From: a virus
Length of the DNA stretch: 26,935 nt
Strand: one strand, 5' to 3'
Virus record (IMG/VR): IMGVR_UViG_3300042294_004657
Coordinates: 1-26,935 of that record
The position numbers and the translations under genes were made by a program. Of the stretch, positions 6,769 to 26,885 are shown piece after piece. The first letter of the stretch is position 1, and each line of letters starts with the position of its first letter. The notes below the pieces were generated by a model. The model was not told the DNA's origin. It did no database searches and was given only the letters and a program-made list of their open reading frames with translations.

Positions 6769-7064
6769 AGGACCTTGACACGCTCGTCAACGGCAAGCAG
6801 CTCGCCGCCCTGCTCGGGCGCCACGAGACATGGGTGATCGCCATGAAAAAGGCCGGCTACGTTTTCCAATATCCCGCTTTGAAAAAGACGACCCTCCGAC
6901 ACGCGCTCAAGGCTTTGTCGCGCGCCCCTTCTTTCGTCGCCGACTACTACCAGCGGAAGGGCTGGGAGACGGACCCACGCTGCACAGCGTGTTTAGCAGA
7001 TCGTCCGCGTCCGAAGAATTCAACCGCCGGTAAATCCGATTCACCAGCTCCGTATGCCCGATAA
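6765..7064 (+). CDS. HTH protein, possible excisionase-like factor (99 aa)
   Basis: ATG 6765 overlaps the previous stop (ATGA). Residues ~7-45 (TLVNGKQLAALLGRHETWVIAMKKAGYVFQYPALKKTTLRHALKAL) read as a winged-HTH or MerR/AlpA-like DNA-binding unit of the kind found in phage excisionases. The last ~50 residues overlap the 3' end of the convergent integrase gene by 158 bp, and their composition (Asp/Pro/Arg-rich, two Cys) looks like antisense sequence rather than a folded domain. Last gene of the early operon and directly next to int, the usual place of xis. Function inferred from fold and position. Confidence 0.5.
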   Translation: MKDLDTLVNGKQLAALLGRHETWVIAMKKAGYVFQYPALKKTTLRHALKALSRAPSFVADYYQRKGWETDPRCTACLADRPRPKNSTAGKSDSPAPYAR

Positions 7065-7986
7065 ACGCACACACCTTTGCCGTCGAGTGCCCGGCCCGCA
7101 GCAGCCGCGTCACGACCGTCACGCGTGCGCAGTGCGCGGAGTAGGGCAGACCCAGCTTGGCAAAGAAATTGCACCAAGCCGCGCCCGCGCTCGGGGCCGG
7201 CTCGATGAGGGTCGCGCGCTTTTCCAGCCGTGCCCGCTCGATGAGCGGCAGCAGCTCGGGATGGAGCGCCGCGGTGTGCAGCTTCCCGCCCTTCAACCGA
7301 AAGGTGATCTTCCGCCGCTCCGTGTCGATGCGATCGAGCGGGACCAGCGTCTCAGTCAGCCGGCACCCCTGGCGCATGAGGACGAGGAACTGCTCGCCCA
7401 TCCACCGGGGCTCCCGCTCCAGGGCCGCGAGGATTTTCACCTCATCCCCGGCTGTGATCTCCGCCTTTTCCTTTGGCGGGCGTTTCCGCAGCTCCACCTC
7501 CCGGCATGGATTCCCCGGTGCGAAGCCGCGCCGCACCGCCTCCGCCATCAGCACCCGGAAAAAGACGAAGCGCAACACCGCCGTATTGTGGCCCACGGCC
7601 CGCAGCGTCTCGCCACTGACGCGCCAGGGCACAAAGCCCTCCGCATCCGCGTAAGTGACCATCCGCGGCGTCCGCAGCCCGCGCTCGCGGAAGTAGGCCA
7701 TCAGATCGATGAGCCCGTATTTTGCGCTCAGCACACTCCCCTTTGCCCCGGCGTAGCGCCGCGCAAAGTAATCCGCCGCCCACGCCTCCCATCGCTCCGG
7801 TTCGGCCACGGCCGGCGCGGCCATTTCCCGCTGAGTGTGCTCGGCCTCGATGCGCTTGGCCTTCCGACGGCCATCGACTGCCCGCTGATCGATCCCCGTG
7901 GATTGCCGCCGCACGAGCCCGGTCGCCGGATCGCGAAACTTCACCCACCAGAATCTGCTTTTTTTGCGGAGATAGACGCTCGCCAT
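6907..7986 (-). CDS. int: Tyrosine recombinase / phage integrase (359 aa)
   Basis: Catalyses site-specific integration and excision of the phage. Start taken at the reverse-strand ATG 7986-7984, where the product begins MASVYLRKKSRFWWVKFRD, a typical arm-binding N-terminus; the open frame reaches 8067 but those residues are low in information. The catalytic set is present: R209 (GCRLTE), K235 in the beta hairpin (LKGGK), H285 and R288 (HCARVTVVTRLL), H311 (FIGHTE) and nucleophile Y319 (NRIYRRL). The middle holds a core-binding SAM-like domain. It lacks any long insert before the catalytic Tyr that I would associate with integron integrases. Convergent with the HTH gene. The phage attachment site should lie close to one end of this gene. 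Confidence 0.92.
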   Translation of the reverse strand: MASVYLRKKSRFWWVKFRDPATGLVRRQSTGIDQRAVDGRRKAKRIEAEHTQREMAAPAVAEPERWEAWAADYFARRYAGAKGSVLSAKYGLIDLMAYFRERGLRTPRMVTYADAEGFVPWRVSGETLRAVGHNTAVLRFVFFRVLMAEAVRRGFAPGNPCREVELRKRPPKEKAEITAGDEVKILAALEREPRWMGEQFLVLMRQGCRLTETLVPLDRIDTERRKITFRLKGGKLHTAALHPELLPLIERARLEKRATLIEPAPSAGAAWCNFFAKLGLPYSAHCARVTVVTRLLRAGHSTAKVCAFIGHTELVNRIYRRLNSSDADDLLNTLCSVGPSPSPSAGSSRRRKKGRATKP

Positions 7987-8168
7987 GCCGTCTGCAATGT
8001 GCCCGCCTGTGCCCAAAGTCAACAACTCAACCCAACCCCACCCAAGCCCGCGCCAGCGTTCCCGCATCGCCTTTATCTTATGAGATTCCTACCGTTACAA
8101 CCAGTACTACGCGGCGTAAGAGGTAGGCGGGCCGGTGTGCCCTGTGGTGTGCCCAAAGGAGGGGTGGA
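7987..8168. other. int upstream region with repeats; candidate attP / integrase arm sites
   Basis: No gene is evident in these 182 bp. Two direct copies of TGTGCCCAAAG lie at 8008-8018 and 8148-8158, each preceded by a further GTGCCC-type unit, and an inverted pair CCTACC (8088-8093) / GGTAGG (8122-8127), extended by TTAC/GTAA, brackets an AT-richer core. Direct repeats flanking an inverted core next to int are what an attP region with arm- and core-type sites would look like. The second direct repeat also runs into the ribosome site of the next gene. Assignment is inference. Confidence 0.35.
8072..8100 (-). promoter_or_regulatory. Possible int promoter
   Basis: On the reverse strand TTGTAA (8100-8095) and GATAAA (8077-8072) are separated by 17 bp, each matching 4 of 6 consensus sigma-70 positions, about 85 bp upstream of the int start. 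It overlaps the inverted-repeat core, so occupancy by recombination proteins could regulate int. Confidence 0.3.
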
Positions 8169-13930: not shown

Positions 13931-14215
13931 ATGACAGCCGCCCATAAATCTCCGCGGGCTCAAGTGTCCGACCGAAGCGAGCTGCTACGCATTGCTGCGT
14001 CCATGCTGCACAACCGAAATTTCCCGTCTGTCTATCCCGAGGACCATCCCAAGCGGACGCCGCGCCGCATAATCGAAGCCGCCAAAAAATCGCAAGACCA
14101 ACTCCGGGATTGGGCCGTGGAACTGGCAGCCATTGCCCGAAGGATGGACGCACAGACTCCTTCGCCGAGCGTCTCAAGCTCAGCGGCTGCGCTGGGCGGG
14201 AAAGGACAACCGTGA
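13931..14215 (+). CDS. Hypothetical accessory protein (94 aa), first gene of cassette-like region
   Basis: ATG 13931 lies 10 nt after TTTGACACCA. Predicted mostly helical: SDRSELLRIAASMLHNRNF, then TPRRIIEAAKKSQDQLRDWAVELAAIARRM. The last ~18 residues (VSSSAAALGGKGQP) are encoded by the left arm of the first attC-like palindrome, so the natural C-terminus may be that of a gene fused to the site. The stop overlaps the GTG start of the next gene. The helical part resembles small phage proteins with a RxIIxxA core, but no family is certain. Confidence 0.55.
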   Translation: MTAAHKSPRAQVSDRSELLRIAASMLHNRNFPSVYPEDHPKRTPRRIIEAAKKSQDQLRDWAVELAAIARRMDAQTPSPSVSSSAAALGGKGQP

Positions 14216-14266
14216 GCGCGGAAACTACCCCAGCCCAGGGCAGTCCGCTGGAGCGCATGGATAGGC
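14164..14266 (+). repeat. attC-like imperfect palindrome 1
   Basis: Left arm from GTCTCAAGCTCAGCGG (14171) and right arm ending CCGCTGGAGCGCATGG (14245-14260) pair, with one unpaired base beside the AGCGG/CCGCT block and compensating changes relative to the other copies. Ends in R''-like GCCGAGC (14164-14170) and R'-like GATAGGC (14260-14266). The loop side contains AAAGGA, 5 nt, then GTG 14212, the start of the next gene. Same family as the palindromes at 15058 and 16105. Confidence 0.65.
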
Positions 14267-14448
14267 CGCTGAGAGAAACCGTGAAGCGAATGAACTGCCC
14301 GAGTGTGATGCGCGAACACCTGTGGAGCATCGAGCGTGAAGGCATGATCGAATGCCTGTGGTGCTTTGAGCGGCGTCGATCGGAGGATAGAGAGCGGCCG
14401 AACGTGCGCGGTCAGCGACTGGCGCAAGAGACGCCACCGAATGCCTGA
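14212..14448 (+). CDS. Small putative zinc-binding protein (78 aa), paralogue of the gene at 16152
   Basis: GTG 14212 is 5 nt after AAAGGA inside palindrome 1 and overlaps the upstream stop; residues 1-~18 are encoded by the palindrome. Internal starts (ATG 14257, GTG 14281 or ATG 14290) are possible and would give only the conserved part. Residues ~24-52 (KRMNCPSVMREHLWSI ... MIECLWCFERRR) hold one Cys, one His and a CxxC, a possible single zinc site. The same core, with KRMDCPTVMREHFWSI and VECLWCFERRR, occurs in the gene at 16152-16574. Function unknown. Confidence 0.55.
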   Translation: MSAETTPAQGSPLERMDRPLRETVKRMNCPSVMREHLWSIEREGMIECLWCFERRRSEDRERPNVRGQRLAQETPPNA

Positions 14449-14529
14449 AACCTTTCGCGCCAGTTCGCTGCACCAAGTGGGTCGGCGTGTCTGGCGCACG
14501 TAACCAAACGCGCGAAGCGCCAAACTAAT
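14449..14529. other. Structured spacer inside cassette A
   Basis: Eighty bases with two nested inverted repeats: GCGCCAG (14457-14463) with CTGGCGC (14491-14497), and TTCGCGC (14454-14460) with GCGCGAA (14510-14516). They are mutually exclusive foldings. No attC-type ends are apparent. May be a degraded recombination site or an RNA structure between two small genes. Confidence 0.35.
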
Positions 14530-14766
14530 ATGAAGACACTGCAACCAGAAGAAACAATGTATGCCCTTTACTGCCGACTGGAGAACAGCCGGGAGTGGTG
14601 GGAGCAAGAGACGACCAAAAGCAAGGAGGATGCTGAATACTGGCTCAAGCGAAACCGCGAGCGAGAGACCGGGCGGGTGTATGTGCTCGTGAAGAAAGTG
14701 ACGACGTTTGAAGTCATCGACGGCGCGGACTCGGAAGCGCCAGATTCGCCGAACGGACAAAGCTGA
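14530..14766 (+). CDS. Hypothetical small accessory protein (78 aa)
   Basis: ATG 14530. One alpha/beta unit is suggested: strand MYALYCRLEN, acidic helix EWWEQETTKSKEDAEYWLKRNRERE, strands RVYVLVKKVTTFEVI. The last residues are polar. It resembles in style the small orphan proteins carried by gene cassettes. A weakly purine-rich stretch precedes the start. No recognised family. Confidence 0.55.
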   Translation: MKTLQPEETMYALYCRLENSREWWEQETTKSKEDAEYWLKRNRERETGRVYVLVKKVTTFEVIDGADSEAPDSPNGQS

Positions 14767-14803
14767 GCGACGATGACGAGCAAACCGCGAAAGGAAACTG
14801 ACT

Positions 14804-15115
14804 ATGTGTGACGAATGTGAATACTACGGTTGGATAGGGGAAACGAAATGCCCTGAGTGTGGATATAACCTCGCGCTGCTGACCGGCGCTAAACGCGAGG
14901 AAATCGTTCGCTCCAGCGCGGGGATGGGCGGCATAACGGAGCGATGGGAATACGCCGCCGCCGTGGACCGCTACAAAGAAACGGGAACGGTGGAAGCACA
15001 CGAGGCGATGCTGGCAGCATACGCCCGGCTGAACGCCGCTGTGAGCGAAGAAATGCCGCCCATCGTCTCAAGCTCAGCGGCGACGCCGGGCGAAAGGAGC
15101 ACCGATGTCCGCTGA
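14804..15115 (+). CDS. Zinc-ribbon accessory protein (103 aa)
   Basis: ATG 14804 is preceded by AAAGGA at 8 nt. The first 20 residues (MCDECEYYGWIGETKCPECG) place C2, C5, C16 and C19 as two CxxC knuckles, a rubredoxin-type zinc ribbon. A helical region follows (TERWEYAAAVDRYKETGTVEAHEAMLAAYARLNAAV). The last ~20 residues (PPIVSSSAATPGERSTDVR) are encoded by the left arm and loop of palindrome 2, and the stop lies 8 nt past the start of the next gene. Probably nucleic-acid or protein binding; function unknown. Confidence 0.6.
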   Translation: MCDECEYYGWIGETKCPECGYNLALLTGAKREEIVRSSAGMGGITERWEYAAAVDRYKETGTVEAHEAMLAAYARLNAAVSEEMPPIVSSSAATPGERSTDVR

Positions 15116-15157
15116 CCTCCCCAGCCCGGCGCTGTCCGCTGGAGCGCGTGGTTATAT
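15058..15157 (+). repeat. attC-like imperfect palindrome 2
   Basis: Left arm GTCTCAAGCTCAGCGG then CGACGCCGGGC (15065-15091); right arm GCCCGGCGCTG, unpaired T, CCGCTGGAGCG. R''-like end GCCCATC (15058-15064), R'-like end GTTATAT (15151-15157). The R''-like end matches the complement of the R'-like end at 14260-14266 in 6 of 7 bases, as expected for both ends of one cassette. AAGGAG, 5 nt and ATG 15105 lie between the arms. Confidence 0.7.
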
Positions 15158-16025
15158 TTCCGTCGTTGAAATTCAAAACGGCGCGTTGGATAAGGAATGG
15201 AGCGGGCGGAGTGGAGCGGGCGGAGTTCTGACCGTGCTGAGTCTGGGCGCGGGCGTTCAAAGCTCGACTCTCGCACTGATGGCCGCGCGCGGAGAAATCG
15301 CGATGCCTGACTGCGCGGTGTTCGCGGACACCCAGGCCGAACCGCCGAGCGTGTATCGCTGGCTCGACTGGCTCGAAAGCCAACTTCCGTATCGGGTGTA
15401 TCGCGTGACGGCTGGCGACCTCGCGGAAACCTCAACGCGGGTGCGCGAGTCGGAGCGAAGCGACGGCGCAAAGTATCTCTCGCATCTGCTGCCAGCCTAC
15501 ACGCTCGCGCCGGACGGATCGAAAGGAACGTGGTTCCGGCAATGCACGGACAAGCACAAGCTCACGCCTCTGCGGAAGGCGATAGACGCGCTGCGCGGCG
15601 AAGCCGCCGCAGTGGTCTGGATTGGGATAAGCACGGATGAAGCAATCCGCATGAAGCCGAGCCGCGTGAAGGGCGTAACCCATGTGTGGCCGCTGATAGA
15701 CGCGGGCATGAGTCGCCGGAAGTGTCTCGCGTGGATGGAAGCCCACGGATACCCGGTGCCGCCACGCTCAAGCTGCTCGCAATGCCCCTACCACTCGGAC
15801 GCGGAATGGCGGAGGCTACGCGATAGCGAGCCTGCCGCGTTCGCGGCGGCGGTGGACTACGAGCGCAAGATGCAGGAAGCCGCGGCGAAGATAGACCGGC
15901 TGGACGCGGTGCCGTATCTGCACGCCTCGCGGGTTCCGCTGCTCGAAGTAGATTTCAGCACGGACTCGGAACGCGGACAGGGCTACTTGTTCGGGAACGA
16001 ATGTGAAGGGATGTGCGGCGTATGA
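15105..16025 (+). CDS. PAPS-reductase-family PP-loop protein (306 aa)
   Basis: An adenine-nucleotide alpha-hydrolase (PP-loop) protein of the phage or mobile-element PAPS reductase group; the substrate is unknown. ATG 15105 has the best ribosome site (AAGGAG, 5 nt) but lies inside palindrome 2 and adds ~43 residues; GTG 15234 with upstream GGAG gives a start right at the PP-loop and fits family length (263 aa). In that numbering: PP-loop SLGAGVQSS (3-11), FADTQAEP (30-37), RQCTDKHKLTPLR (C104), CLAW (C164), SSCSQCPYHSDAEW (C181, C184) and the end NECEGMCGV (C257, C261). The cysteines might hold an iron-sulfur cluster. Relatives include DndC/IbrA-type proteins. It is the cargo of the best-defined cassette. 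Confidence 0.75.
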   Translation: MSADLPSPALSAGARGYISVVEIQNGALDKEWSGRSGAGGVLTVLSLGAGVQSSTLALMAARGEIAMPDCAVFADTQAEPPSVYRWLDWLESQLPYRVYRVTAGDLAETSTRVRESERSDGAKYLSHLLPAYTLAPDGSKGTWFRQCTDKHKLTPLRKAIDALRGEAAAVVWIGISTDEAIRMKPSRVKGVTHVWPLIDAGMSRRKCLAWMEAHGYPVPPRSSCSQCPYHSDAEWRRLRDSEPAAFAAAVDYERKMQEAAAKIDRLDAVPYLHASRVPLLEVDFSTDSERGQGYLFGNECEGMCGV

Positions 16026-16104
16026 ACGCGATGCCTTTTGGTCCGCTTGGGCGGCGGGGGTGGGGTCTTGGTTGGGAGATACGCGCCGCAATGGAGCCGA
16101 GGAA

Positions 16105-16204
16105 ATATAACGTCTCAAGCTCAGCGGCGACGCCGGGCGGAAAGGATGCCGATGTCCGCTGACCTCCCAAGCCCGGAGTCGTCCGCTGGGCAGCGCCTCA
16201 TTCC
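16105..16204 (+). repeat. attC-like imperfect palindrome 3
   Basis: Same left arm as palindrome 2 (GTCTCAAGCTCAGCGG, CGACGCCGGGC) with right arm GCCCGGAGTCG, unpaired T, CCGCTGGGC. R''-like end ATATAAC (16105-16111), extended to GGAAATATAAC from 16101, is the exact complement of GTTATATTTCC at 15151-15161, the left end of the same cassette. The right end is degenerate (TCATTCC). The spacer carries GGAAAGGA, 5 nt and ATG 16152. Confidence 0.7.
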
Positions 16205-16574
16205 CGCCGACGAACAAACCGGGAGCCCTGAGCCCGTGGAGTCGCCAAGCGCCACCGAAGCCAGAGCAGACGGCTCGGGAGACAGCTTGAAGCGCATGGA
16301 TTGCCCGACTGTGATGCGCGAACACTTTTGGAGCATCCCTAACAATGGGTGGGTCGAGTGCCTTTGGTGCTTTGAAAGGCGTCGCACGGACGGTGGAAAG
16401 CCGTCTGCCGGCGCTAGGAAGCCAGAACGGCGCGCTGACCAACGGAGGAGGGGCTCAATGAAAGACGAGCAAGCCCCTTTTGGTCCAGCAAGTGGTTCGC
16501 CGCGCACACGCTCGGCTGAGAACCGCCCCTCCGTAGTTGGGCAGCGCGCCGTTCGCCGCGCGGCGAACAGATGA
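16152..16574 (+). CDS. Putative zinc-binding accessory protein (140 aa), paralogue of 14212-14448
   Basis: ATG 16152 is 5 nt after GGAAAGGA inside palindrome 3; ATG 16146 is in frame two codons earlier. The N-terminus MSADLPSP is encoded by the palindrome and is identical to that of the frame opened by palindrome 2. The core (LKRMDCPTVMREHFWSI, VECLWCFERRR) is nearly the same as in the gene at 14212. The last ~60 residues, Arg/Ala/Pro-rich, are encoded by the fourth palindrome and are probably not a domain. A real start could be TTG just before the core. Function unknown. Confidence 0.5.
   Translation: MSADLPSPESSAGQRLIPADEQTGSPEPVESPSATEARADGSGDSLKRMDCPTVMREHFWSIPNNGWVECLWCFERRRTDGGKPSAGARKPERRADQRRRGSMKDEQAPFGPASGSPRTRSAENRPSVVGQRAVRRAANR
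16422..16557 (+). repeat. Large attC-like palindrome 4 (different family)
   Basis: Arms GAACGGCGCGCTG (16425-16437) and CAGCGCGCCGTTC (16542-16554) pair perfectly over 13 bp, and the pairing continues inward (ACCAAC / GTTGGG, GGAG / CTCC, GGGGC / GCCCC) with bulges. Possible ends: CCAGAAC (16422-16428) and GTTCGCC (16551-16557). Total ~136 bp is within the long end of attC sizes. It shares no primary sequence with palindromes 1-3. Confidence 0.5.
16450..16481 (+). terminator. Possible rho-independent terminator inside palindrome 4
   Basis: GGGGCT (16450-16455) and AGCCCC (16472-16477) can form a short stem followed by TTTT (16478-16481). It competes with the larger fold of palindrome 4. It would end transcription of the accessory region before the packaging genes. 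Confidence 0.35.
16551..16568. repeat. 18-bp perfect palindrome next to TerS gene
   Basis: GTTCGCCGC followed directly by GCGGCGAAC, 32 bp upstream of the terminase small subunit start. It begins in the R'-like end of palindrome 4. Could be a protein-binding site (for example a packaging or operator element) or two abutting cassette ends. Confidence 0.55.
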
Positions 16575-16599: not shown

Positions 16600-17382
16600 A
16601 TGACCGCCGAACTTCCACTCCCGCCCGGCCCCGCCACGCCGGCTTCACCCGTGCCCCCCGCCGCCGAGGCTACCGCCGAACAGATTGCCCGCTGGGAATC
16701 CCTCTACGACACGAAGCGGCGGCAGCTCTTTCGTTACCTCGCCACGGGCCGCGAGAAAGGCCGGCCGTGCCCGATGGATCATCCCGCACAAATGCCCGGC
16801 TGGTGGGCCGCGTGCATGAAGCAGCGAGTGCCCACGAAGATCCTCACCGCCGCACAGCACGCCGCCGCCCAGACCGGCACGCCCGCGAGCGAAGCGCCCG
16901 CGCCCGAGCCACCGCCACCCGCGCCCGCCGGAGAACTGGCGCTCACCGAGTCCAGCTACGATTTCCCCGCCCAGGTCGAGCGCCTGCGCGGCGAGCAGCG
17001 CCGCATTCAGAGCCAGCTCGACAAAGCGCGCGCCGGAGCGGTCGTGGATGGCGTCCTCGTCGTGAATCAAACCGACTGCGAAAGCCTTTTGCGCCAGTCC
17101 CTTTCCCTCACCGCCGAGCTGCGCAAAGCCGAGAACGATCTCAACGCCTGGCTCGTCACCCGCGGCGCGCTGTCCGACACCGCGACGGTGCGCAGCGAAA
17201 ACGCCCGCATTGCCGGCGCGATCTACGGAGCCGTGCGCCGCCTCGTCCGCAGCGTCCGGCCCCTGCTCACCGGCAAAAGCGACGCCGAGCAGGACCGGCT
17301 ATGGGACGCTAAAACGCTGGAATGCTTTTCCGCGCTCAAGGCCGCGAAGTTCACCGTCGAGATCCCCGCGGAAACCCCATGA
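16600..17382 (+). CDS. Putative terminase small subunit (260 aa)
   Basis: Would recognise the phage packaging site and load the large subunit. ATG 16600; the stop overlaps the TerL start as ATGA. Residues ~23-75 (TAEQIARWESLYDTKRRQLFRYLATGREKGRPCPMDHPAQMPGWWAACMKQRVPTKI) form a helical DNA-binding-like domain, a Pro/Ala linker follows (~85-105), and residues ~115-180 are a coiled coil (VERLRGEQRRIQSQLDKARAG, LLRQSLSLTAELRKAENDLNAWL), which would support oligomer rings. A DNA-binding domain plus coiled coil next to TerL fits TerS, but no family signature is certain. Confidence 0.6.
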   Translation: MTAELPLPPGPATPASPVPPAAEATAEQIARWESLYDTKRRQLFRYLATGREKGRPCPMDHPAQMPGWWAACMKQRVPTKILTAAQHAAAQTGTPASEAPAPEPPPPAPAGELALTESSYDFPAQVERLRGEQRRIQSQLDKARAGAVVDGVLVVNQTDCESLLRQSLSLTAELRKAENDLNAWLVTRGALSDTATVRSENARIAGAIYGAVRRLVRSVRPLLTGKSDAEQDRLWDAKTLECFSALKAAKFTVEIPAETP

Positions 17383-19388
17383 GCGCCGTCGCCGAACTCC
17401 GCGAGTTCATCACCTCCACCTGGGCCGATGGCATCCGCGATCGAGCCGTGCAAAACGTCTGGGAGTTCGCCCGAGACCACATCGTCTTCACCCCGAAGAT
17501 GGGCAACATCACCGGGCCTTACGACCCCGACCTCACGCCCTACACCAAGCTCTTTCAGGAAGCGATCACCAGCGACTTCCGCAACATCCCAGAGGAGGAC
17601 TGGTGGCTCCGCGGCCTCGCGGAAAAAGGCCAGCGGTGCGACGAAGCCTTCGTCGTGAAAAGCTCGCAATCCGGCCTCACGCAGGGCGCGCTCAACGGCA
17701 CCATCTACCTCCCACTCCACTCGCCGGGCCGCCTTCTCTACGTCCTCGACAGCGTCCCGAAAGCCAAGAAGGTGGCGCTCACCCGCGTCATCCCTTTCCT
17801 CCGCGAGCTGTGCGGATCAGTCATCGCCGACGAGGCCGATCTCAACGCGACCTTCATCGAGCTGATGGACATGATCATGGAATTCGGCGGATCCTACTCG
17901 TCCGGTCTCTTCTCGGAAAAGCCGCTCAAATACGCCTTCGCCGACGACGTCGAGTATATGGTCAGCCAGGGCGGCGCCGCCGGCATGCTCGACGGCGTCC
18001 ACGTCATTGATCACCTCCGCTCCCGCTTCACCACCGCCGACGAATCCTTCCTCGGCGTCTTCTCCAAGCCCAACCTCGAAAGCTCCGAATTCATCGCCAA
18101 CGCCCTCGCCGGCTCCCAGCATCGCTACTACGTCCGGTGCCCGCACTGCGGCACCCGCCAGATACTCGAACCGGAAAACCTCAACTACGATCACAAAGGC
18201 TGCAAAGACCTCGCCGGCCGCTACGATCTCGACGCCGTCGAAGCCCTCACCACCTACCGCTGCGCCAGCGCCGCGCATTGCGAGATCGAGGAAAGGTGGA
18301 AGCACTCCATGAACGTCGCCGGCACATGGCTGCCCAAGTCCCGCGAGGCCCGCATCCGCGACGAAGATCCTGCCCTCGTCCCGCGCCGGCTCTCCATGCA
18401 GATCAGCGATCTCTACTCCCCTTTCCCGAAGGTGAAGTGGGGCATGCTCGCCCGCATGAAGATCGCCGCGGAAAACAACCCCGCCGCCCTGAAGCATCTC
18501 ACGACAAACCATTTTGCCCGCCCCTGGCGCGAGTCCGCGATCAGCCTCCGCGCCGACAACATCCGCGCGATCTGCGCCGGCGCGCTGAATCCGCTCACCG
18601 GCAAATGGTGGCCCGACGACTGCGACCACGAGGGCAAGCTCAAAGTGCCAGCCTACCGCCGCGGCGAGTGCCCCTTCCGCCCCGTCGCCGTCACCGCCAC
18701 CAGCGATGTCCAGGGCGACAAGTTCAAATGGATCATCTGCGGCTGGCAGATCGACGGCACCTGCGCCGTCATCGAATACGGAGCCTCCCTCGGCACCTTC
18801 GATCTCTACGAAAAAATGATCGACCCCCGCGCCCACGATGGCTCCCCGCTGCTCTCCCTCATCGATCCCGACCGCCCGCTCATCGCCGAGCATGGCCTCG
18901 TCGATTCCGGCGCGTTCACCTCGGCGATTTACGATTTTTGCATCCGCACCGGCTGGGCCTGGTATCCGTCGAAAGGCACCGGCGGCATCGAACTCAACGG
19001 CCAGATGGTCGCCGGACGCCCCGACTTTTACGAAGGCACGCCGATCCTCCGCTACCACTACCACGATCACGCCCTCAAGACCCTGCTCTACAACGGCAAG
19101 ATCGCCAAAGCGCACGACAGCAAGTGGCCGCAGCCCCGCCTGTACCTCCCCCACGATCTCACCGACGACTTCATCCTCGAACTCCTCTCTGAATCCCTCC
19201 AGCCGAAGCGCACTTCCGGCCGGGCCGTGCGCATGGAATGGATTCACAACTCGCGCATCGGCCCGAATGACTGGGGAGACGCGCTGAAAATGCAGTTTGC
19301 CCTCTGGCAGATCGTCGGACCCCAATACCAGGGTGCAGCCGGCCTCAACGTCCGCCACTACGAGCTAAAACCCGCTCCGAACGCATAA
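17379..19388 (+). CDS. terL: Terminase large subunit, GpA family (669 aa)
   Basis: ATP-driven DNA packaging motor and nuclease. ATG 17379 overlaps the TerS stop. The N-terminal ATPase has a Walker-A-like KSSQSGLT (94-101), as in lambda gpA, and a Walker-B-like KYAFADDVE (184-192). RCPHCGTRQ (C254, C257), with later Cys residues, marks the zinc insertion typical of this family. The C-terminal half holds the nuclease-like domain with TSDVQGDKFKW and GLVDSGAFTSAIYDFC, and YHDHALKTLLYNGKI near the end. Length, zinc site and order of motifs agree with GpA-type terminases of lambda-like phages. Confidence 0.93.
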   Translation: MSAVAELREFITSTWADGIRDRAVQNVWEFARDHIVFTPKMGNITGPYDPDLTPYTKLFQEAITSDFRNIPEEDWWLRGLAEKGQRCDEAFVVKSSQSGLTQGALNGTIYLPLHSPGRLLYVLDSVPKAKKVALTRVIPFLRELCGSVIADEADLNATFIELMDMIMEFGGSYSSGLFSEKPLKYAFADDVEYMVSQGGAAGMLDGVHVIDHLRSRFTTADESFLGVFSKPNLESSEFIANALAGSQHRYYVRCPHCGTRQILEPENLNYDHKGCKDLAGRYDLDAVEALTTYRCASAAHCEIEERWKHSMNVAGTWLPKSREARIRDEDPALVPRRLSMQISDLYSPFPKVKWGMLARMKIAAENNPAALKHLTTNHFARPWRESAISLRADNIRAICAGALNPLTGKWWPDDCDHEGKLKVPAYRRGECPFRPVAVTATSDVQGDKFKWIICGWQIDGTCAVIEYGASLGTFDLYEKMIDPRAHDGSPLLSLIDPDRPLIAEHGLVDSGAFTSAIYDFCIRTGWAWYPSKGTGGIELNGQMVAGRPDFYEGTPILRYHYHDHALKTLLYNGKIAKAHDSKWPQPRLYLPHDLTDDFILELLSESLQPKRTSGRAVRMEWIHNSRIGPNDWGDALKMQFALWQIVGPQYQGAAGLNVRHYELKPAPNA

Positions 19389-24501: not shown

Positions 24502-24544
24502 CGGAGTTTCTCCGGGGCCTCCCAGTGGCCTCAAAAGAAAACCC

Positions 24545-24581
24545 GAAAGCCCGACCGCTAGCCCGGTCGGGCTTTCCTTTT
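24545..24581 (+). terminator. Rho-independent terminator after capsid gene
   Basis: GAAAGCCCGACCG (24545-24557) and CGGTCGGGCTTTC (24564-24576) pair perfectly over 13 bp around CTAGCC, followed by CTTTT. It ends 7 bp before the next start, so the glycosyltransferase gene is shielded from most capsid transcription. Confidence 0.8.
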
Positions 24582-24587
24582 GCACCC

Positions 24588-26885
24588 ATGAATCCACAGA
24601 AAATCTCCCTCGCCATCATCACCGGCAACATCGGCGCGCCGATGATGAACCGCTTCCTCGATCACTTCTGGCAGGTCGCCGACGAGATCATCGTCGTCCG
24701 CGCCATCGGCGACCAGCCGCCCGACGAAAGCCTCGACGTAGCCAAGGCGCGCGGCTGCGTGGTGGGGGAATACTTGAACTACACCGAAGAGCGCCCGGAT
24801 TTTGATGAAGAAACGGGGCTTCGCAGCATGGACATGAGGATGCCCAGCGACCCCGCCTACTGGCCCCATGTGGATAACTTCGCCGCCGCGCGCAATCTCG
24901 CGTGGAGCATGGCCACCGGAGACTGGATCATGTGGGCCGATACCGACGACATCATCACCCCGGAGGCCGCTGCCGCCATCCGCGCCGCGATCGAGGAAAA
25001 GGGCGAGCGCTTCGATATGTTGCAGACCCCCTACTGCGTCCCAGATGCCGGCCTGCTCGACAACCCGCGCGAGCGCGTGGTCCGCCGCGGCATCGCCCGC
25101 TGGGCGCAGCCCGTCCACGAATGCCTCGAACCCATCGACCCCGCGGCGAAGTGGCGCACCGCCACCTGCGCCGAGGGCCGCATCGTCCACGATCCCGGCC
25201 CCCGCCCGCCCGCCGCGCGCAATGGCCGCAACCTCCGCATCCTCGAAAGCCTCCCGCCCGACCAGCTCACCACCTCCCTGCGCTACCATCTCTTCGCCGA
25301 GCTTTTCGCCATGGGGCGCAAAGCCGAGGGCGCGCTCGCCGCCGAGCAGTTCCTGCTGCTGAAAGACGCCGGCCCCGTCGAGCGCTTCGAGTGCGCGCTC
25401 TCGCTTTCCATGGTCGCCGAAGATCCCGCCGACAAAGCCCAATGGCTCCAACTCGCCTGGCACGAATGCCCCCACCGCCGCGAGCCGCTCGTGCTGCTCT
25501 CCAATCTCGCCCTCAACGCCGACGATCCCACCCGAGCCGAAGCCTACCTCCGCGCCGCCTCCGCCCTCCCGCTCCCGCAGCCCGCCCCGTGGAATCTCCG
25601 CCGCAAGATGTGGGGCTGGCAGTTCATCCAAGAGCAAGCCCGCGTGCTGCGCACCCAAGGGAATTTCCCCAAAGCCGAGGCGCTGGAAACGAATCACTTC
25701 CGCCGCCACGGAGCCCGCATCTCCCTTCTCCACGCCACCCGCGGACGCGCGCAGCAGGCCATCGAAACCCGCGCCCTCTGGCTTGAGCGCGCCGCCGATC
25801 CCGACGCCATCGAGCACATCTTCGGCCTCGATCCCGACGACCCCGAAGGCCCCGCACTCGGCGGCTTCCGCCACATCATTCAGGACTCCCACGACGGCGG
25901 CCCCTGCGGTGCATGGAACATCGCCGCCACCGTCGCCGCGGGCGAAGTCTTCGTCCAAGTCTCCGACGACATGATCCCCCCGCAAGGCTGGGACCGCGCC
26001 ATCCTCGACGCCCTCGGCGTGACCACCGTCCCCGCCGTCCTCCGCGTCTCCGACGGACACCGCACCGACGGCCTCATCGTCCTCGCCATCGTCACCCGAG
26101 CCTGGTGGAAGCAAGAAAGCTACCTTTTCCACCCCGCCTTCTTCAGCATGTTCAGCGACAACTGGCTCACCGAGTGCGCGCAAAAAGCCGGAGCCATCAT
26201 CGAAGCCCCGCACCTCGTCTTCGAGCACCGCCACCCCGTCTTCACCGGGGAGCCCATGCACCCGACGACCGCAAACAGCAACAGCCTCCTCCACTACGCG
26301 ACCGGGGCGAAGATCCTCGCCCAGCTCCGCGCCGGCCGGGAGGCATTCACCTGGCGCGACATCCCCGGATGCGTCCTCGACCCTTCGCCCGCAAAGGTCC
26401 ACGCTCGCATCATCGGCCAGTTGGAAGCGCCCGTCTGCGTCGAGGTCGGCGTCGCCAATGGCCGCGGGCTCGCCTGTATGGCAACGCTGGCCGAGTTCCG
26501 CGGGGGCCGCGCCGTTGGAATCGACACCTTTTTGGGGACTCCCGGTGAGTCCGAGGGCTACCCACCGGACATGATGGCTCGGAGCTTTGAAAACATCGCC
26601 CGCTGTTCCATCGACCATATCACCGGTCTGCGCTGCGCTTCCAGCCTCGAAGCTGTCCAGGATATTCCGGACGCCGCTTACGACTACGTCTTTCTCGACG
26701 CCGCCCACGACTACGAGAGCATCCGCGCCGACATTGCCGCATGGTGGCCCAAGATCAACCCCGGCGGATGGCTTGCCGGCCACGACTACACCGACGCCGA
26801 GAGCGTTCGCCGAGCCGTCGATGAAGCCTTCCCCCACGCCGAAAAGCTCGGCACCTGCTGGCTCGTCCAGAAGCCCCTCGCATGA
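24588..26885 (+). CDS. Glycosyltransferase / TPR / methyltransferase fusion (765 aa)
   Basis: ATG 24588 just after the terminator. Residues 1-~225: GT2-type GT-A fold with SLAIITGNIG, ARNLAWSMATGDWIMWADTDD (DXD at 118-121). ~230-370: TPR-like helical repeats (FAMGRKAEGALAAEQFLLLKD, PTRAEAYLRAASALP). ~376-590: a second GT-A-like unit (ARISLLHATRGR, VFVQVSDDMIPP with acidic motif 459-461, FEHRHPVF). ~605-765: class I SAM methyltransferase with VEVGVANGRG (618-627), GIDTFLG (644-650), YVFLDAAHDYE (700-710) and GHDYTD. This would add and then methylate sugars on a phage or host surface glycan, or on a virion protein. No signal or membrane span, so cytoplasmic. Placement after the capsid gene suggests virion glycosylation, but host-surface alteration is an alternative. 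Confidence 0.75.
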   Translation: MNPQKISLAIITGNIGAPMMNRFLDHFWQVADEIIVVRAIGDQPPDESLDVAKARGCVVGEYLNYTEERPDFDEETGLRSMDMRMPSDPAYWPHVDNFAAARNLAWSMATGDWIMWADTDDIITPEAAAAIRAAIEEKGERFDMLQTPYCVPDAGLLDNPRERVVRRGIARWAQPVHECLEPIDPAAKWRTATCAEGRIVHDPGPRPPAARNGRNLRILESLPPDQLTTSLRYHLFAELFAMGRKAEGALAAEQFLLLKDAGPVERFECALSLSMVAEDPADKAQWLQLAWHECPHRREPLVLLSNLALNADDPTRAEAYLRAASALPLPQPAPWNLRRKMWGWQFIQEQARVLRTQGNFPKAEALETNHFRRHGARISLLHATRGRAQQAIETRALWLERAADPDAIEHIFGLDPDDPEGPALGGFRHIIQDSHDGGPCGAWNIAATVAAGEVFVQVSDDMIPPQGWDRAILDALGVTTVPAVLRVSDGHRTDGLIVLAIVTRAWWKQESYLFHPAFFSMFSDNWLTECAQKAGAIIEAPHLVFEHRHPVFTGEPMHPTTANSNSLLHYATGAKILAQLRAGREAFTWRDIPGCVLDPSPAKVHARIIGQLEAPVCVEVGVANGRGLACMATLAEFRGGRAVGIDTFLGTPGESEGYPPDMMARSFENIARCSIDHITGLRCASSLEAVQDIPDAAYDYVFLDAAHDYESIRADIAAWWPKINPGGWLAGHDYTDAESVRRAVDEAFPHAEKLGTCWLVQKPLA

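Follow-up and report, generated by a model that had tools for sequence, protein, structure and literature searches.

A PAPS-reductase-like gene as the probable cargo of an integron-type cassette in a phage array of attC-like sites

The gene of a PP-loop, PAPS-reductase-like protein (15105..16025, + strand, 306 aa) is probably the cargo of an integron-type cassette within a phage CALIN. The window, by which we mean the whole stretch of DNA analysed, is a virus record of 26,935 bases. Profile searches identified terminase, portal, primase-like, amidase and tyrosine-recombinase genes in it, and the phage is a tailed phage, a virus of bacteria. For its TerL (17322-19388) the best E-value among phage records was obtained with Akkermansia phage Moulinsart at 25% identity, a sequence similarity that gives a weak hint of Verrucomicrobiota as host. 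The array of attC-like sites is bordered by a small replication-side gene on one side and by the terminase genes on the other, and a search of cultivated phages returned no DNA match to the cassette region. The start of the array falls within the 3' end of a phage ORF of 94 aa (13931-14215), the C-terminus of which differs in the related contig L095 from that in the others; this region is possibly an attG-like entry site. Elsewhere in the window, downstream of a capsid-like gene, an ORF of 786 aa (24525-26885) appears by eye to join a glycosyltransferase and a methyltransferase-like domain; it gave no match in a PADLOC search.

The genes in this part of the window have direct repeats of about 80-100 bp on their flanks, and five hairpin sites of ~90-185 bp split the region from 14.16 to 16.2 kb into cassettes. 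Folded on the minus strand, the sites form an R''-spacer-L''-loop-L'-spacer-R' hairpin that is imperfect and has paired R boxes and L boxes, as attC sites do. Most of them also carry the two extrahelical bases of attC sites on the 5' arm (R''-L''): a C or G, plus an A, five to six bases apart. A similar bulge geometry on the same arm was found, with a variant of the structural scan, in a site of the integron-bearing phage TJE1, at the end of a methyltransferase gene. A covariance model (R1) built from 16 sites recognized five window sites, each on the minus strand; four of them had served for training. From left to right these are site A (14164..14266, top strand minus, E 1.9e-24, training site, also seen in the fold; crossover between 14169 and 14170), site T2 with a different body sequence (14397..14486, minus, E 3.6e-12, training site; crossover between 14402 and 14403), a long site outside the training set that has an exact two-bulge stem (14748..14929, minus, E 3.3e-7; crossover between 14753 and 14754), site B, the attC of the PP-loop cassette (15058..15157, minus, E 1.4e-24, training site), and site C (16105..16206, minus, training site; crossover between 16110 and 16111). 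In the contig L089 the model found six sites outside its training set: two nearly duplicate a training site, and the other four share 47-61% identity with the closest one. It also found sites in L085/L094. Some sites gave a weaker match on the opposite strand (24.4 against 100.6 bits at L083 2455). The stems covary: both partners have changed in 16 of the 19 inner pairs, and double-change cells number 53, compared with 19.5 for shuffles and no more than 18 for slid controls. Sites and contigs are related, so such counts are not independent. The R' box begins with GTT in 25 of 33 sites and is strictly GTTRRRY in four of the 33, GTTCGGC being the commonest form.

The same model gave no match in the 137,219 bases of three published integron-bearing phages (two of them, L108 and L109, partial records), so membership among attC sites rests on anatomy and not on a shared profile. 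The core of the site was held by fourteen viral stretches, against three in a genome collection of 84,980 species. These three matches of the degenerate site pattern, one of which has a weak model score (L102, E 0.016), were treated as chance. A search of Rfam with the window from 13.4 to 17.0 kb returned a single chance-level match. Because a structural scan that allows one mismatch yields about 2.7 chance matches per 26.9 kb and strand, orientation was judged by the exact two-bulge scan only, which detects two of the five window sites and places exact two-bulge stems on one strand only. With AAC and GTT boxes as an added requirement, the scan recovered a single TJE1 site and nothing in the window, in the Vibrio phage or in the Polaribacter phage, besides one match on the other strand in L089 that was taken as chance; for these reasons it is a weak control. 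We hold with high confidence that the sites and the segments between them are attC-type cassettes. Near the right edge of the array, at 16425-16554, there are also long inverted repeats with 30-bp arms, and in L095 a long inverted repeat with no clear extrahelical bases (about 7620-7760) replaces site C beside the same flank.

The first bases of an integron cassette are complementary to the R'' box of the attC that belongs to it. In this array the longest complementarity between the two ends of a cassette averaged 8.9 nt, against 4.9 nt for non-partners, and was reached in none of 10,000 permutations (21 cassettes). The PP-loop cassette (15064..16110, +, 1047 bp) has the ends GTTATATTTCC and GGAAATATAAC, complementary over 11 nt, and the two other cassettes with a PP-loop gene, L005 and L006, pair over 10 nt and 7 nt. 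The cassette to its left (14754..15063, +), which contains a zinc-ribbon-like ORF, has the ends GATGGGCGGCAT and ATGCCGCCCATC, complementary over 12 nt. Further left are cassette B (14170..14402, +), an attC followed by a short ORF ending in ...RSEDRERP, and a cassette (14403..14753, +) with a 78-aa ORF (14530-14766).

Relatives of the window differ at these boundaries. Four close relatives (L084, L086, L088 and L093) do not have window positions 14406-16107, a stretch of 1.7 kb with the PP-loop gene, while their flanks match at 96.9-99.6%, and they rejoin the window at the predicted crossover of site C. Three further contigs of the same phage (L082, L087 and L095) hold other cassettes at the position of the array. 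The suggestion of an earlier note on this DNA that the gene is mobile cargo acting as a cassette is thus borne out: it sits in an integron-type cassette that some close relatives within one phage possess and others lack. Nine contigs yielded a list of 49 shared segments, which are for the most part phage backbone; 13 of the pairwise comparisons, some of them dependent on one another, contain a segment that stops no more than 4 nt from a predicted crossover. Complementary cassette ends and crossovers at G^TT, both features of attC recombination, were found, but some breakpoints lie elsewhere. Two events broke at the opposite R'' box (L084 or the window against L095; L087 against L089), L091 has the ORF portion of cassette B but not the attC of that cassette, with the break at window position 14275, L082 and L087 diverge about 140 nt beyond a site, and the left-flank breaks of L083, L089 and L091 are outside sites. 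A short CxxC-type peptide, MNCPSVMREHLWSIEREGMIECLWCFERRR, is encoded in two copies in the window (14273-14395 and 16279-16401, 79-85% DNA identity) that belong to different cassettes or flanks.

Four units made of an attC and the ORF to its right recur at 91.6-99.6% identity: cassette B (window, L084 and L083), the 78-aa cassette (window and L091, at 97%), a KTRKTT cassette (L085, L087 and L089) and an MTAKK/MTANK cassette (L083 and L095). L083, L089 and L091 have a common backbone of their own at 93-97%, and L085/L094 carry different terminase and helicase genes and match the window at the repeats only. At least three backbones therefore share the cassette pool, and since some of the same cassettes occur in other backbones at up to 99.6% identity the exchange appears recent. 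Such patterns could also arise if the repeats were hairpins prone to recombination (MITE-like or promoter/ribosome-site modules) and homologous recombination between them, with no integron-type recombinase, did the shuffling. The near-identity of several sites over 80-100 bp, the rarity of strict GTTRRRY boxes, the failure to find IntI and the breakpoints off the predicted crossover would all agree with it. We nevertheless consider it improbable. One and the same cassette end is continued, from an identical base onward, by sites that differ in body sequence (T2 in the window, site C in L084 and the one at L083 1682), something that homology between repeats leaves unexplained; own-end complementarity is specific to each cassette, and the exact two-bulge stems were found on one strand only.

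The attC-type cassettes described here have an unusual layout. Each gene follows its own attC on the 3' side and runs antisense to the top strand of that site, and in four cassettes the exchanged unit is an attC with its downstream ORF, not an ORF with a 3' attC. We had first considered that the attC stands 3' of the ORFs, since ORF stops also fall in sites; this orientation was rejected because cassette B keeps its left attC and is then followed by three different attC bodies (window, L084 and L083), and because the bulges are on the 5' arm of the minus strand. Of 19 complete cassettes, 16 have their longest gene-strand ORF beginning inside the attC, and in 17 this ORF ends from 40 nt before to 100 nt after the start of the next site. 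Starts preceded by a Shine-Dalgarno sequence and leading into the cassette were present at 19 of 32 sites, at none of the 32 in the opposite direction, and in 11.4% of 1140 random stretches. When the Shine-Dalgarno sequence is disregarded the contrast is weak (starts leaving the attC at 29 of 32 sites, at 21 of 32 in the other direction, and in 72% of random stretches). Only the large cargo genes are secure, because the longest ORFs were no longer than those of shuffles in 13 of 19 cassettes (P 0.05 or less in the other six) and the gene strand had the longer ORF in 13 of the 19.

Site B reads AAGGAGCACCG-ATG on the + strand, the start codon being at 15105, and residues 1-17 of the PP-loop protein are encoded by the attC; a TTG at residue 28 and a GTG at residue 44 are alternative starts in the window. 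In L006 the sole in-frame start before the PP-loop motif is an ATG in the attC, and in L005 both possible in-frame starts before it (ATG, GTG and TTG considered) are in the attC. It is likely that the attC supplies the start codon of the cargo, the actual use of which we infer. An attC that is 5' of the genes and encodes a leader in frame with the cargo was not found in the literature searched.

The window encodes a phage-type tyrosine recombinase (6907..8067, minus strand; phrog_1, E 6.3e-17), which scored 14.1 bits against the integron-integrase model, the cut-off of which is 265. At E 0.01, no TIGR02249 integron integrase was found in 16 related records, which may be fragments, so that the intI gene of a complete integron was not seen in them and the array is classed as a CALIN. 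Tyrosine recombinases at E 0.01 or better were present in two of 14 records, both of the phage of the window, and none was found in the records of 51 kb and 60 kb, which may be incomplete. The site pattern did not reveal a host integron array in the collection of 84,980 species. As the records may be incomplete, we infer rather than observe that IntI is supplied in trans.

The earlier note had read the PP-loop gene and a zinc ribbon together as mobile cargo. The second ORF (14804-15115, +, 103 aa) is indeed where it had been placed and has two CxxC pairs. Its reading as a zinc ribbon is by eye, Pfam matches being sub-threshold only, and the CxxC stretch of the ORF comes from the loop of an attC-like site. 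The two ORFs overlap by 11 nt inside the site between two cassettes. A relative of its C-terminal part (43% identity) is present in L083, where a PP-loop relative was not found. Both genes are thus in cassettes, but the zinc ribbon is in a separate one and was not shown to be a partner; the idea that the two form one functional pair was rejected. Small CxxC proteins that begin with a similar leader peptide are encoded by further attC-led cassettes at L111 3009-3233 and L087 444-740.

The PP-loop protein matched phrog_424 'PAPS reductase' with E 2.7e-44 and the PADLOC SspD profile with E 5.9e-20 over residues 44-258, whereas its match to Pfam PAPS_reduct (17.3 bits) was below the cut-off of 22.5. 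A search of NCBIfam gave no match, and the best E-value in a sequence search of solved structures was 0.021. The two cysteine motifs that had been pointed out, SSCSQCPYH and CEGMC (the latter within NECEGMCGV), are both present. Aligning 53 phage sequences showed exactly six invariant Cys (147, 207, 224, 227, 300 and 304), and the loop LGAGVQS is likewise invariant. Relatives were found in 49 of 50,697 phage records; in IMG/VR, 124 stretches matched the search pattern, 122 of them encode a relative, and 80 were retained. Had most homologues lacked the loop or the cysteines, this would have spoken against the earlier reading; instead, of 79 relatives checked, and with six excluded for a stop within the matched interval, 70 of 73 had all three motifs as scored by the patterns used. 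The conservation of the C-terminal motif is partly selected, because this motif was one of six search seeds. The predicted model has a mean pLDDT of 85.3, with residues 1-40 in blocks averaging 42 to 50 and residues 1-38 of low confidence; the PP-loop domain begins only at about residue 40, and residues 1-17 come from the repeat, which corrects the earlier note. The model has a PP-loop type fold for which Foldseek listed GMP synthetase first and PAPS reductases next. In a second structure comparison PAPS reductases led (Z 12.3, 11.4 and 11.1), closely followed by LarE (11.1), ATP sulfurylase (11.1), APS reductase (11.0) and NcsA (10.7). Structure prediction had been proposed beforehand as a check; with these Z-values so near each other the fold leaves the chemistry undecided.

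Six of the cassettes seen encode proteins of more than 250 aa: three a PP-loop protein (window, L005 and L006), one a Mom protein (L089, E 6.3e-33) and two, in tandem, N6_N4 DNA methylases (L110, a stretch of the L091 contig). Among 128 neighbours at 40 loci of PP-loop relatives the two most frequent Pfam families were DNA_methylase (5) and N6_N4_Mtase (4). The 51-kb contig with the methylase cassettes (L091) also encodes, at L004 and with no detected site, a relative with 75% identity to the PP-loop domain of the window. Most PP-loop relatives are outside detectable arrays of this kind, because among 79 PP-loop loci only L005 gave a clear covariance-model match (E 8.9e-9, one clear site), and L006 has a weak downstream site (E 0.1) and an upstream site seen by eye.

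Since its sister cassettes carry Mom and DNA methylases, an orphan DNA modifier is the best-supported function of the PP-loop protein; by association with these cassettes it may well modify DNA, a reading that we favor on balance. The phrog_424 family is often listed as a sulfur-metabolism gene of viruses, and the protein could instead be a metabolic PAPS/APS reductase, a 'cysH' auxiliary metabolic gene that boosts host sulfur assimilation. The name of the phrog, the presence of PAPS/APS reductases among the nearest solved folds and the Cys motif at the end of the protein point that way, but we think this unlikely given the sub-threshold Pfam PAPS_reduct match beside the SspD profile at 5.9e-20, the nearly tied Z-values of LarE, NcsA and the reductases, and the DNA methylases and Mom of the sister cassettes and most frequent neighbour families.

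The match to SspD over residues 44-258 suggests in turn a sulfur carrier of the DndC/SspD type that works with host Dnd or Ssp partners, either for phosphorothioation of the phage DNA or for poisoning of the system. A study of DndC (PMC10853773) describes a cluster held by three Cys and a Cys dyad, to which the six invariant Cys could correspond. The PP-loop domain is similar to SspD, but no DndA, B, D, E or SspA, B, C operon turned up among the ORFs searched. The earlier remark that Dnd partner genes are lacking holds for the window ORFs covered by profile searches, and 10 further window ORFs had no match in PADLOC at E 0.01. Among the neighbours of relatives at 40 loci, no Dnd or Ssp family was in the first 25 of 46 Pfam or the first 25 of 132 PADLOC families. 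Dependence on such partners is accordingly as doubtful to us as the metabolic role. Still less probable is a modifier of tRNA or of a small molecule by TtcA-, NcsA- or LarE-like sulfur transfer that travels by chance with DNA-modifying cassettes: LarE (Z 11.1) and NcsA (Z 10.7) are near the reductases in fold, but the sister cassettes carry Mom and DNA methylases.

We propose the following model, with DNA modification as the role of the protein. The cassette unit is an attC and then a gene, the gene on the strand opposite to the attC top strand. Recombination is placed at G^TT in the R' box, which reads AA^C from the gene side, and is presumably carried out by IntI acting in trans. Most likely a host IntI recombines the sites as folded single strands. 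The loop of the attC often brings a Shine-Dalgarno sequence and a start codon, so that the cargo would be fused to a short attC leader such as MSADLPSP..SAGARG, and the gain of the phage would be a ready-to-translate enzyme. Several phage backbones draw on a common pool, the large genes of which are DNA-modification enzymes; most likely the pool represents exchangeable DNA-modification (anti-restriction) cargo. The PP-loop protein most likely activates or transfers sulfur, or reduces an activated group, so that the phage DNA is modified and restriction is blunted, and it may perhaps use an iron-sulfur cluster and a Cys pair by analogy with DndC. More tentatively, these could be phage-adapted integron cassettes, in which the attC is a combined recombination and translation-start module 5' of the gene, adding a disordered N-terminal tag, DNA-modification plug-ins are swapped and the recombinase in trans prefers GTTCGGC; we give this extended version somewhat less than even weight.

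Arrays of attC sites in phages are already known, since Qi et al. 2023 (PMC9892861) reported 17 phage CALINs from single genomes, with IntI1 active on five of six phage attCs and with methyltransferase cargo. There TJE1 is listed as attC-bearing, the arrays of TJE1 and PH101 are typical in orientation, and the sites of P12002L are divergent in direction. The array described here agrees with their account in having attC sites without intI in a phage, DNA methyltransferase cargo and a two-bulge R-box hairpin like that of a TJE1 site. It differs in that the ORFs are 3' of the attC and on the opposite strand, that the start codon is often in the attC, that relatives of one phage differ by cassette insertions and that cassettes are common to several backbones. 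The textbook cassette, as given in PMC4670013, consists of an ORF with a short 5' UTR and a 3' attC. Complementary boxes at the cassette's own ends, the G^TT crossover and compact units are the same, whereas here the attC is 5' of the gene, can encode its first residues and most commonly has GTTCGGC, not GTTRRRY. PMC8876359 reports that ORF-11 in attI1 and short ORFs in attC sites aid the translation of cassettes. A recombination site contributes translation signals in both cases, but there the ORF ends and re-initiation follows, and here the leader is in frame with the cargo. With phrog_424 and SspD/DndC the protein of the window has the PP-loop fold, conserved Cys and carriage by phages in common; it differs by its own Cys set (CxxCP[YF] and CEGMC), by the failure to find Dnd or Ssp partners and by its occasional place in an attC cassette.

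Cassette polymorphism within one phage species was not found in the literature searched. Here close relatives, on contigs with several dataset numbers, differ by whole cassettes, some of which recur in other backbones. The inverted layout with a start codon in the attC would be a second way of expressing promoterless cassettes, and the DNA-modifying cargo of the sister cassettes gives phrog_424 a testable role.
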